A stretch of DNA of 47,653 nucleotides, taken from Candidatus Omnitrophota bacterium (GTDB lineage: Bacteria > Omnitrophota > Gorgyraeia > Gygaellales > Profunditerraquicolaceae). The stretch spans positions 1-47,653 of the forward strand of contig JAPLLW010000003.1 of the NCBI GenBank assembly GCA_026387355.1, given 5' to 3'. The notes under the pieces are model-generated. The model worked only from the letters and a program-made list of their open reading frames with translations. It was not told the DNA's origin and made no database searches. Positions within the stretch are counted from its first letter, which is position 1. Each line of letters begins with the position of its first letter. The position numbers and the translations under genes are program-made. This document shows positions 34,155 to 38,891 of the stretch, one piece after another.

Positions 34155-34490
34155 CTATTTAATCTTCCTATAGAAACAGTTGTGGTTACCCGTATGGCAG
34201 GCTTGACCTACTTGACGCACTTTAATTAACAACGTATCCATATCGCAGTCATAACAAATCGACTTTACAAACTGAAAATGTCCACTAGTTGCGCCCTTTA
34301 CCCAATATTCTTTACGCGACCTAGACCAGTAACAAGTCTTACCTAGCTTTAAAGTCCGACGCAAAGATTCTTTGTTCATATAGGCGAGCATTAGCACTTC
34401 GCCAGTTTTATAGTCCTGAATTATCGCAGGGATCAACCCGGATTTATCAAATTTAAACTCTCCTAAATTCGCTTTAGTCTTTTTTATCAT
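34155..34490 (-). CDS. hisI: Phosphoribosyl-AMP cyclohydrolase
   Basis: HisI opens the adenine ring of phosphoribosyl-AMP (third step of histidine synthesis). The 111-residue protein is the cyclohydrolase alone, without a HisE domain. Motifs include [40 protein letters not shown], the metal-binding [13 protein letters not shown] and [14 protein letters not shown]. The frame is open further upstream, but the ATG at 34490 overlaps the hisF stop (ATGA) and gives the family start. Confidence 0.96.
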
Positions 34491-35242
34491 ATGCGCACCG
34501 GGATTCCCCTTTCTCTTAAATAATCTTTGACTTGTTTTACGGTAAAGACCTCGTAATGAAAAAGCGAAGCAGCTAAAGCTGCATCTGCCCCGGTTTCTAC
34601 AAAACACTCGTAGAAATCCTCTAGCTTCCCTGCTCCGCCGGATGCAATTACCGGGATATTTACGCTTTTGCAAACGGATCTGGTTAAATCTAAATCATAG
34701 CCGTCTTTAGTCCCATCATAATCCATGCTCGTTAAGAGTATTTCGCCGGCTCCAAGAGATGCGCCTTTTTTAGCCCACTCTATGGCATCCAGGCCGGTGG
34801 GAGTCCTGCCACCATTGATATATACCTCCCAACCTGCCTCAGTTTTCTTAGCATCAATTGCCAAGACTATGCACTGGCTGCCAAATCTCTTAGCAGAATC
34901 CGAAATTAACTCAGGGAACTTTACTGCCTGAGAATTTATAGAAACCTTCTCAGCTCCGGCATTTAAAATATTTCTTATATCGATAACATCACCGATGCCG
35001 CCGCCTACGGTAAAAGGCATAAAAATATTACTGGCTATCTTCTCAACTAATTCTACGATAGTCTTACGTTTTTCGAAACTAGCTGTAATATCTAAAAAGG
35101 TAAGCTCATCAGCCTGCTCGAGGTCATACGCCCTTGCCACCTCAACAGGATCACCTGCGTCTTTTAAGCCTAAAAACTTTACACCTTTTACCACCCGGCC
35201 ATCTAATATATCCAAACAGGGTATAATGCGCTTAGTCAACAT
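34487..35242 (-). CDS. hisF: Imidazole glycerol phosphate synthase, cyclase subunit
   Basis: HisF condenses PRFAR with ammonia from HisH to give IGP and AICAR. From the ATG at 35242 the (beta/alpha)8 barrel has 251 residues. It begins [20 protein letters not shown], with the catalytic Asp of CLD near residue 11 and the second in VLAIDAKK near residue 130. Phosphate-binding loops are TVGGGIGD and [12 protein letters not shown]. It follows the lipoprotein gene by five bases. Confidence 0.97.
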
Positions 35243-35247
35243 GGATC

Positions 35248-35685
35248 CTATTTTGTCTTCTCCTGCAAATACTGACTTAAAGCCTTCCATGTACTCTTAT
35301 TAACCTTACCATTAGTTTTTAAGTTATGGGCTTTTTGAAATGCCTTTATTGCATCACGGGTCTGCTTGCCCATGCGTCCGTCAATATTTCCCGGATCAAA
35401 ACCGGCATTCTTTAAGGCAGTCTGAATCTGCTTAACATTACCTATGTGTCTTGACTCAACTGCGCTTTCCTTGGCTACAGACTCAGTTTTTTCAGTCGCC
35501 TTACTCAACTCTTCTTTTAAAGCGCTAATCTCCTGATCCTTACTCTGTATCTGCGCCTCGAGCAATGAGACCTGATTCTTTAACCCCTGCGCATCGAGAT
35601 CTTTCTTCTTGCCAAATGTTGCGCAACCACTCAAAGACGCTACAAAAACAACCAAGATTAAAAAAAACAACACCTTTTTAAACAT
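35248..35685 (-). CDS. Peptidoglycan-binding lipoprotein
   Basis: This 145-residue protein begins with a lipoprotein signal: [20 protein letters not shown] then Cys21 (lipobox LSGC). A short coiled coil (about residues 31-65, [14 protein letters not shown]) links to a C-terminal peptidoglycan-binding domain ([55 protein letters not shown]). It is probably anchored in the outer membrane and touching the cell wall. No enzymatic domain is seen. The start is set by a GGGGGAGAT ribosome binding site; an upstream in-frame ATG (35700) would precede it. It interrupts the histidine genes between hisA and hisF, with no obvious functional link to them. Confidence 0.85.
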
Positions 35686-35701
35686 ATCTCCCCCTTTCAT
35701 C

Positions 35702-36421
35702 TTATGACATTTTTATGGCCTGAGGTAATGTAAATCTACCCTCATACAAAGCCTTTCCTACAATTACTGCACTCACCCCTTCCTTGCTTAAGCTTTTTAA
35801 TTTACGTAAATCTTCAAGGCTGGATACCCCACCTGACGCAATAATCTTCAAACCGGTTATCTTCAAAAGTTTTTTCAACTCTTTGATATTCGGCCCAGAT
35901 AAAGTTCCGTCTTTTAAGGTATCTGTGTAAATCAACTCTTTAAACCCTAGTTCTTTAAGATACAAACTAAATTCGCAGGCATCAGTATTCTTAAAACCCA
36001 TCTTCCAGCCTTTTACCATTACTTTACCGTCTTTAGCGTCAACTCCGACAATTATCTTTTCCTTGAACTTACTAAAAGCTTTCTTTAGGAATACTTTATC
36101 TTCTACTGCTCTTGTTCCTAATACTACTCTCTTAACTCCTAGATCTAGTATTGATTTAATTGTTTCTATACTACGAACTCCTCCGCCAAACTCTACAGGG
36201 ACCTTTATCTCTTTAACAATATCTTTAACGATATTCAAATTCTTAGGGCTCCCCGTAAAAGCGCCATCTAAGTCCACGATGTGCAAAAATTGCGCTCCTT
36301 GCTTAACCCAATGTTTAGCGACCTTAAACGGGCTTGAGGAATAAACTTTCTTATTCGACTTCCCTTGCACAAATCTTACTACGCAACCGTCTTTTAAATC
36401 TATCGCGGGGATTATCAGCAT
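35702..36421 (-). CDS. hisA: ProFAR isomerase
   Basis: HisA isomerises ProFAR to PRFAR, the substrate of HisHF. The 239-residue barrel shows MLIIPAIDLKDGCVVRFVQG with catalytic Asp8, LHIVDLDGAFTGSPKN, EFGGGVRSIETIKSILDLGV, GVDAKDGKVMVKGWK with the second catalytic Asp, and IASGGVSSLEDLRKLK. The start overlaps the hisH end by seven bases. Confidence 0.96.
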   Translation of the reverse strand: MLIIPAIDLKDGCVVRFVQGKSNKKVYSSSPFKVAKHWVKQGAQFLHIVDLDGAFTGSPKNLNIVKDIVKEIKVPVEFGGGVRSIETIKSILDLGVKRVVLGTRAVEDKVFLKKAFSKFKEKIIVGVDAKDGKVMVKGWKMGFKNTDACEFSLYLKELGFKELIYTDTLKDGTLSGPNIKELKKLLKITGLKIIASGGVSSLEDLRKLKSLSKEGVSAVIVGKALYEGRFTLPQAIKMS

Positions 36422-37023
36422 AGCTTTACAAAGTTTTCCAAGATCTTAAGCCCTAGAGACTGACTCTTCTCGGGGTGGAACTGTACGCCGAATATATTCC
36501 CCTGCCAAACAGCAGAGCTGAATTTAACTTCATAATCACAAGCAGCTACCCTAACTAAATTTTCGCTTGGCTCAGGATAATATGAATGACAGAAGTAAAC
36601 AAACGCATCTTCAGGTATATTCTTTAATAGCGGACATGCTGGGTTAACATCTTTTAATTGATTCCACCCCATATGTGGAACCTTATGCCTTAACCCTTCA
36701 AATTTCTTTACCTCTCCGCTAATAAGCCCTAGACCTTTGCACTTATTTGCCTCTTGACTTTTGTCAAACAATAGCTGCATCCCAAGACAAATACCCAAAA
36801 ATGGCTTTCCTGACTTAGCCTCTTTTTTTATAACCTCAACTAATCCCTGCTTTTCCAGCTCAAGCATGGCATCGCCAAATGCACCTACGCCAGGTAAGAC
36901 CATTTTATCAGCAGCAGAGATCTCTTTAGGATTATTAGTAACTTTAGTTTTTGCACCGTATAATTCCAGGGCTTTTTTTACGCTATGAATATTACCCATA
37001 CCGTAATCAATAAGCGCGATCAT
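36415..37023 (-). CDS. hisH: Imidazole glycerol phosphate synthase, glutaminase subunit
   Basis: HisH hydrolyses glutamine and passes ammonia to HisF. From the ATG at 37023 the product has 202 residues, with MIALIDYGMGNIHSVKKALE, the nucleophile in GKPFLGICLGMQLLFD and the catalytic His-x-Glu in VQFHPEKSQSLGLKIL. A TTG three codons upstream is in frame but less likely. It lies one base after the hisB stop. Confidence 0.96.
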   Translation of the reverse strand: MIALIDYGMGNIHSVKKALELYGAKTKVTNNPKEISAADKMVLPGVGAFGDAMLELEKQGLVEVIKKEAKSGKPFLGICLGMQLLFDKSQEANKCKGLGLISGEVKKFEGLRHKVPHMGWNQLKDVNPACPLLKNIPEDAFVYFCHSYYPEPSENLVRVAACDYEVKFSSAVWQGNIFGVQFHPEKSQSLGLKILENFVKLC

Positions 37024-37024
37024 C

Positions 37025-37630
37025 TTAATCAATTATTCCCTTTGTTGAAGGAACACCTTTACGCCGCGGATCAATTTGCGAAGCCAGATCCAAGGCTTTT
37101 CCTAGGGCTTTGAAGACAGGCTCTAAATTAGTGTGTATATCCGGATTATTTGACTCTAACTTTATACTCAGATCAAACCCTAATCGTTTTGCAAAAGATT
37201 CAAAAAAATGATTGGCGTATTCAAAGGTATATCCTTCTTCTTGATTTATGGAAAGGTTCTTGATTCCTGCAATACCCGTAAAAAACCCCCGGCCGCTTAT
37301 ATCGACTACAACAGTAGCTACTACATCTTCCATTGTCCAAGAAAAAGAACCAGCCCTGACAATACCTGTTTTATCTCCGAGAGCTTTCTTAAAAGCGTCA
37401 CCTAAAACAATACCTATATCCTCATTGGTGTGATGCATATCCACCTTTAAATCGCCCTTAGCAATAATATCTAAATCAAACAAACCATGAAAAGCAAATA
37501 ACTCAAGCATGTGATCCAGAAAACCGATCCCCGTGCTTATCCTAGATTTACCCGCTCCATCGATATTCAATTTCATAGTAATATCTGTCTCTTTGGTTAT
37601 TCTTTTTATAGTTGTTTTTCTTTCTTTCAT
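37025..37630 (-). CDS. hisB: Imidazoleglycerol-phosphate dehydratase, second metal motif lost
   Basis: HisB dehydrates IGP to imidazole acetol phosphate using manganese bound by two similar half-domains. The first half of this 201-residue protein is normal: GIGFLDHMLELFAFHGLFDL and DMHHTNEDIGIVLGDAF. In the second half the usual PMDEAL is TMEDVV, the LH(V/I) histidine is serine (LSI), and the NxHHxxEAxFKA motif reads DIHTNLEPVFKA, so one of the paired histidines is threonine. The frame and length are intact. It sits in the expected place between hisD and hisH. It may be a divergent subfamily, or no longer an active dehydratase. Confidence 0.85.
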   Translation of the reverse strand: MKERKTTIKRITKETDITMKLNIDGAGKSRISTGIGFLDHMLELFAFHGLFDLDIIAKGDLKVDMHHTNEDIGIVLGDAFKKALGDKTGIVRAGSFSWTMEDVVATVVVDISGRGFFTGIAGIKNLSINQEEGYTFEYANHFFESFAKRLGFDLSIKLESNNPDIHTNLEPVFKALGKALDLASQIDPRRKGVPSTKGIID

Positions 37631-37664: not shown

Positions 37665-38891
37665 CTACACAAATCTCGCCTTCACTGAATCTAAATGTCT
37701 AGTCAGACCCTCGATCCCAGCTATCTTCTCCAGCGGCTCCTTCATCTTCTCTAGGGCTCTCTTAGAATAACTGATAATGTGATTGCTCTTTATAAAATCA
37801 TCTACAGATAGGCCTGAGAAAAATCTAGCTGTACCTCCCGTAGGGAGAACGTGACTCGGGCCTGCGATATAATCTCCAACCGCAGTCGGGCTATATGGCC
37901 CTAAGAATATTGCTCCGGCATTTCTAATACCTTTAAGCAAGCGCTTAGGATTTTGCACCAAAATCTCCAAGTGTTCAGGCGCAATCTTATTGGTAATTTC
38001 AATTGCTTGATCCAGATTCTTGGTCAAAACTATAAAGCCCTCCTGATCATCAAGCTGAAATCTTACTTCATTTACCAAAGTCTTAGAATTAGTAATAAGT
38101 ATAGCTAGGCCTTTAGCATGCTCTGCCTGGGCGCGCAGGTCTGCGACAATAAATTTAGGGTCACTAAAACGATTAGCGATAATCACAAGTTCCGTAGGCC
38201 CTGCAATCATATCAATATCAACCTTACCAAAGACCTGCCTCTTTGCCTCACTCACATAAATATTTCCCGGGCCGACAATCTTATCCACCGCAGGAATAGT
38301 CTTTGTCCCATAAGCTAAGGCGGCAATACCTTGAGCCCCCCCTACGCGATATATCTCATCTACCTTTAATAAATCCGCAACCACCAGTATGTGCGGATTG
38401 ATATATCCGCTTTTATTAGGAGGTGATACTAAAACAATCTTTTTAACGCCTGCGATCTTAGCCGGAAGAACCGTCATATAAACTGTTGAAACTAATGGCG
38501 CTGTACCGGCAGGGATATATATACCTACACGGTCAAGCGGAGTATAATTCTCTCCAAGAACTACTCCATCAGCATCCTTAATTCTCCATGATTTTCTTAA
38601 GGTCTTACGGTAAAAACGATTGACATTGTCAATAACGACTTTGAGGCTTGAGACAAAGTTCGGGCTAATATTCTGATAGGCTCCGCTAATTTCAATCTCG
38701 GAAACCCTAAGCTGCCGAGTGAGAAGCTTTATCCCGTCAAACTTCTTTGTATATTTTATCAGCGCCTCATCACCAAGAAGGCGCACATCATCAATGATCT
38801 TCTTTACTTTGTCTTCAACTCGCGCCTTCTTTGCTGAAGAACGGTTATAAATCTTATCCAGCTGTTTGCTATTAAAACGTATTATCTTCAT
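37665..38891 (-). CDS. hisD: Histidinol dehydrogenase
   Basis: HisD catalyses the last two oxidations to L-histidine. The 408-residue product has the zinc-site Gln/His in RAQAEHAKG, the catalytic pair in KIAPEHLEILV, GPYSPTAVGDYIAGPSHVLP and the C-terminal zinc His in IEGLTRHLDSVKA. NAD-binding residues are in GPGNIYVSEAKRQVFGKVDI. It is slightly shorter than the E. coli enzyme (434). The ATG overlaps the alaS stop by four bases, so the histidine genes are coupled to alaS. Confidence 0.97.
   Translation of the reverse strand: MKIIRFNSKQLDKIYNRSSAKKARVEDKVKKIIDDVRLLGDEALIKYTKKFDGIKLLTRQLRVSEIEISGAYQNISPNFVSSLKVVIDNVNRFYRKTLRKSWRIKDADGVVLGENYTPLDRVGIYIPAGTAPLVSTVYMTVLPAKIAGVKKIVLVSPPNKSGYINPHILVVADLLKVDEIYRVGGAQGIAALAYGTKTIPAVDKIVGPGNIYVSEAKRQVFGKVDIDMIAGPTELVIIANRFSDPKFIVADLRAQAEHAKGLAILITNSKTLVNEVRFQLDDQEGFIVLTKNLDQAIEITNKIAPEHLEILVQNPKRLLKGIRNAGAIFLGPYSPTAVGDYIAGPSHVLPTGGTARFFSGLSVDDFIKSNHIISYSKRALEKMKEPLEKIAGIEGLTRHLDSVKARFV

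Follow-up and report, generated by a model that had tools for sequence, protein, structure and literature searches.

Has the HisB protein encoded in this stretch of Omnitrophota DNA lost its capacity to bind the metals required for imidazoleglycerol-phosphate dehydratase (IGPD) activity, or has its metal site been altered in a way that still permits catalysis? The question was raised by a reading of the 47,653 nucleotides under analysis (hereafter the window), in which the second metal-binding motif of HisB was described as lost. Two explanations were then put forward, namely a divergent HisB with altered metal binding, or a protein in another role with the dehydratase encoded elsewhere.

The gene is in frame and of normal length, as originally stated, and the family assignment of its product is supported at both profile and fold level. 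The Pfam IGPD profile (PF00475) matches the protein with 153.9 bits against a cut-off of 27, covering profile positions 1-144 of 144. The AF2 model (pLDDT 92), which is of a monomer while the Mn2 site spans two chains, gives Z scores of 24-30 to 21 entries of IGPD structures, the next best score being 8.2, and reaches Z of about 30 with an rmsd of 1.3 over 183-185 residues for the top IGPD structures. Thirteen NCBIfam HisB models also match, all of them below the curated cut-off (best 215.3 versus 269). Since the second HHxxE is absent and HTNLE is found in its place, window HisB is, judged by its sequence, a variant of the IGPD family and not a textbook member. The features of the locus are collected in Table 1.

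Table 1. Genes and metal-site residues of the hisB locus (window coordinates; At, Arabidopsis IGPD2 numbering)
Feature	Coordinates	Strand	Basis or remark
hisD	37665..38891	minus	TIGR00069 485.6 bits; synteny
hisB, IGPD variant, 201 aa	37025..37630	minus	ORF, Pfam IGPD match, AF2 model fold
His40 (At His47), retained Mn1 ligand	37511..37513	minus	alignment
HHTNE, first motif, residues 66-70 (At H73, H74, E77), intact	37421..37435	minus	alignment
Glu101 (aligned with At Asp108), candidate substitute ligand of Mn2	37328..37330	minus	Glu in 86/86 variants
His141 (At His145), retained Mn2 ligand	37208..37210	minus	His in 85/86 variants
Ser155 (At His159)	37166..37168	minus	outside the eight-ligand table of PMC4509728; varies among variants
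His166 (At His169), retained Mn1 ligand	37133..37135	minus	alignment
Thr167 (aligned with At His170, the Mn2 ligand that is lost)	37130..37132	minus	alignment and PMC4509728, Table 2
Glu170 (At Glu173), retained Mn1 ligand	37121..37123	minus	alignment
hisH	36415..37032	minus	TIGR01855 247.3 bits; synteny
hisA	35702..36421	minus	TIGR00007 257.4 bits
Small lipoprotein-like ORF with PG_binding_1	35248-35700	minus	between hisA and hisF
hisF, start probably within the ORF	34487..35290	minus	TIGR00735 370.6 bits
ORF with hisI in its C-terminal part	34155..34673	minus	NF000768 170.6 bits, residues 65-172

The model was compared with Arabidopsis IGPD2 (EC 4.2.1.19; structures 4mu0, 4mu3 and 4mu4; PMC4509728), to which it shows a Z score of 30.0 and an rmsd of 1.3 over 185 residues, with 40% identity to 4mu0; its numbering is used below unless window HisB is named. 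Members of the IGPD family are 24-mers with two Mn(II) in each active site. Table 2 of that paper lists His47, His74, His169 and Glu173 as ligands of Mn1, and His73, Glu77, His145 and His170 as ligands of Mn2. In the mechanism described there, Asp108 and Glu77 hydrogen-bond the Mn2-bound water HOH1, forming a proton relay, and Mn2 becomes five-coordinate in order to take the imidazolate, a six-to-five switch in the plant enzyme. His170 is supplied by the adjoining chain, as is its reported counterpart His238* (PMC10978614), the match between the two numberings being our own. Window HisB retains seven of these eight published ligands, the one lost being His170, among the four protein ligands of Mn2. 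The catalytic Glu21 and the phosphate-binding Arg99, Arg121, Lys177 and Lys201 are also shared with the plant enzyme in the alignment. The differences are the absence of His170, a Glu in place of Asp108, the loss of His159 and a loop before the second motif that is one residue longer.

The changes from which the question arose are thus real (DIHTNLE at residues 164-170, Ser155 and TMEDV at residues 99-103), and the first HHxxE, HHTNE, is intact as described, but the loss of the whole second motif was overstated, since the counterparts of His169 and Glu173 stand in register and only His170 is replaced. The replacement of the LH histidine by Ser exists (His159); this residue is not among the eight ligands in Table 2 of PMC4509728. 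In the TMEDVV change, which is likewise present, the part that matters is the exchange of Asp108 for Glu; Thr at position 106 is private to window HisB (1/74 variants). A shifted register, in which the histidine of the second motif would be His170, with a bulge, is rejected in view of the identical His-to-Glu spacing, the unbroken helix predicted at residues 165-184 of the model and the gap-free alignment of Glu173 and Lys177, all of which make a ligand conserved at a shifted position unlikely. Glu148 (Glu144 of window HisB), three residues past His145, was also considered as a new ligand. Position 148 is acidic in 73/73 variants; Glu148 is found in 17 canonical rows together with His145 as well, so it appears to be the partner of His145 and not a new ligand.

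In order to define how widespread the change is, HisB was sampled from 253 loci, 240 of which yielded a HisB, 199 of them distinct. Three loci without column 170 (L166, L218 and L253) were left out, leaving 196 distinct sequences; the hisB of L166 (G268 C56:29868-30323) carries one in-frame TGA within the family match. His170 is absent in 86 of the 196, with Thr in 71, Ala in 12, Ser in two and Lys in one. Each of Glu108, His73, His74, Glu77, His169 and Glu173 is present in 86/86 of these variants, His145 in 85 (Gln once) and His47 in 85 (one gap). In a sample of 74 variants, Arg99, Arg121 and Lys177 are found in all, and Glu21 and Lys201 each in 73, the remaining row having a gap. The 110 sequences bearing His170 have Asp (95), Glu (6), His (4), Gly (4) or Val (1) at position 108. 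At position 145 they have His in 33, Glu in 42, Asp in 18, Gln in 15, and Ser and Asn once each. This Mn2 ligand position is therefore not His in 77/110 canonical rows, and the residue at 148 shifts its charge alongside. Asp or Glu at 145 occurs in 0/92 rows with Glu108 versus 55/95 rows with Asp108, a distribution in line with a link between residue 108 and the charge of the Mn2 site, where there would be a charge limit. Further columns dividing variant from canonical HisB are 110, 111, 113, 159, 164-165, 171 and 174.

All 86 variants come from Omnitrophota or from unclassified bacterial MAGs grouping with Omnitrophota, and they span at least 13 family labels of this phylum. The 15 HisB on named plasmid or chromid records, among the matches listed (60 of 74), all have His170 and Asp108; these records belong to Bacillota, Fusobacteriota, Pseudomonadota, Actinomycetota, Bacteroidota and Deinococcota. 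A scan of viral contigs gave a single partial HisB, the motif being absent from it. With 86 distinct sequences sharing it, the loss of His170 is far from a chance event. A decaying gene or a sequence error in a single MAG, for which the private Thr at position 106 might speak, is refuted by the occurrence of the change in distinct sequences from many assemblies, and is opposed as well by the open frame of normal length and by the low pN (0.13-0.18) relative to pS (0.62-0.85) between window hisB and five relatives; we consider it hardly conceivable. By the same ratios, variant hisB is evolving under purifying selection.

The origin of the loss was analysed on three trees. On a tree of 167 rows with the trait columns removed, one change at position 170 suffices (SH-aLRT 91), as it does on a tree with the columns kept (SH-aLRT 99). 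A slower tree of 89 rows plus outgroups needs two changes, and forcing the variants together on it is not rejected (AU p 0.23). The loss would thus have arisen once or twice, and the match between absent His170 and Glu108 is to be taken as an association. With so few origins, the tree-aware comparison has no power, giving one independent pair for position 170 versus 108, and two starred pairs without significance for 108 versus 145. Glu108 requires six changes on the tree without the trait columns and on the slower one alike. It is found, as in the variants, in the canonical Omnitrophota HisB of L149, L153, L168, L169, L176 and L181, which have His or Gln at 145 and in which His170 is still there. 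Among them, L176 is placed near the variants, and Glu108 may have preceded the loss of His170.

The genomic context bears on whether the variant is the dehydratase of the cell. The neighbouring hisD, hisH, hisA, hisF and hisI each attain a curated cut-off, and the order alaS-hisD-hisB-hisH-hisA-hisF-hisI-trpE is common to variant and canonical Omnitrophota loci where these are long enough (80 loci). The canonical HisB of the phylum (e.g. L077 and L080; 54-59% identity for L076-L080) differ from window HisB in an intact HHxxE and, mostly, in Asp108. As it occupies the same operon slot, the variant is the in-place equivalent of canonical HisB and not a paralogue. The PG_binding_1 (peptidoglycan-binding) ORF between hisA and hisF recurs in most of the variant loci that are long enough, and in no canonical locus.

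The genome of the window, which is 92% complete, was searched for a second, canonical hisB and none was found, the variant being its one IGPD match. An IGPD match is present in 97/108 genomes of the family and is single in 93 of those; G040, G062, G082 and G092 have two each, which are adjoining pieces or short pieces on another contig. The suggestion that the protein has taken another role, the dehydration falling to a gene elsewhere or to an unrelated enzyme, could appeal to the scores below all 13 NCBIfam cut-offs and to the roughly 8% of the genome that may be missing. It remains unsupported in view of the single match here and in the family, the retention of Glu21, Arg99, Arg121, Lys177 and Lys201, and the canonical operon slot, and is in our opinion very improbable. 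The variant is very likely the working imidazoleglycerol-phosphate dehydratase of the cell.

As regards the rest of the pathway, hisG and hisC are present in the genome of the window, in which hisE (phosphoribosyl-ATP pyrophosphatase, TIGR03188) was not found; a further pathway step is thereby left without an assigned gene, a point against the reading favoured below. The TIGR03188 cut-off is passed in 0/105 family genomes and in 1/117 phylum genomes, and since many of the phylum genomes sampled have a canonical HisB, this gap seems not to be tied to the variant. The match obtained in the hisE search of the own genome (G000 C18, L213) is a MazG-like pyrophosphohydrolase, which might fill the hisE step.

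How, then, could the enzyme operate without His170? The reading that we favour, and hold to be reasonably probable, is that the dehydratase works and that its Mn2 site has been remodelled, Glu108 probably replacing His170. It fits the part of the original prediction that proposed a divergent HisB whose metal binding is altered: the whole group lacks one Mn2 ligand, always together with Glu108. The Mn1 site would be normal. Mn2 would be held by His73, Glu77 and His145 plus Glu108, whose side chain, one methylene longer than that of Asp, can probably reach the metal, which would bring this carboxylate out of the second shell into the first; Glu108 would also double as the proton-relay residue. 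The reaction itself would be unchanged, the imidazolate being bound between the two metals, the C3 hydroxyl leaving and tautomerisation following.

The confidence that we place in the parts of this proposal is not the same. Mn2 is likely still bound, as its leftover ligands are more strictly kept in the variants than in canonical HisB. The alternative that the Mn2 site has been lost, so that the variant uses Mn1 alone or a different metal pair, can point to the missing ligand and to the fact that sequence does not reveal metal identity, but an empty site would not require His73 and Glu77 in every variant and His145 in all except one, and we regard this alternative as improbable. That Glu108 is a direct ligand of Mn2, a water filling the gap otherwise, comes close to an even chance. 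A move into the first shell is the simplest reading, given that a single water separates Asp108 from the metal and that Glu is the sole residue at this position when His170 is missing. Glu108 alone is no sign of such a swap, as it coexists with His170 in 6/110 canonical rows.

The same six rows, which suggest that Glu108 need not bind metal, also speak for a further alternative, in which Mn2 sits on three protein ligands (His73, Glu77 and His145) and waters, and Glu108 tunes the second shell only. All three ligands are conserved, and such a permanently ligand-poor Mn2 would be near the state that the canonical enzyme creates upon substrate binding, when, according to PMC4509728, Mn2 becomes five-coordinate for the imidazolate. 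Against it, the invariance of Glu108 in the variants versus Asp, Glu, His, Gly or Val in canonical HisB suggests that this residue became indispensable, and the three-ligand arrangement seems to us rather unlikely. Returning to the remodelled site with Glu108 as ligand, we tentatively entertain a wider possibility, namely that a second-shell relay carboxylate became a first-shell Mn2 ligand and thereby freed His170, giving an enzyme with altered ligands and charge at Mn2 that operates without the six-to-five switch.

The enzyme is a known one, and what is new is the group without His170, as measured against a 2020 alignment in which HHXXE is reported for all 535 IGPDs (PMC7284861); our literature searches, with most subscription papers outside their coverage, returned no report of a HisB without the second HHxxE. 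The mechanism published in PMC4509728 depends on which residues bind Mn2, and a natural group lacking one of these ligands permits a direct test of it. The group has relevance for inhibitor design against IGPD and for annotation, the variant being rejected by each of the 13 NCBIfam models that match it, and it illustrates how an enzyme of core biosynthesis can exchange a metal ligand that is buried in its structure. In a large group of uncultured Omnitrophota, HisB has dropped one of its eight manganese-holding residues, and the site has probably been rebuilt rather than its function lost.
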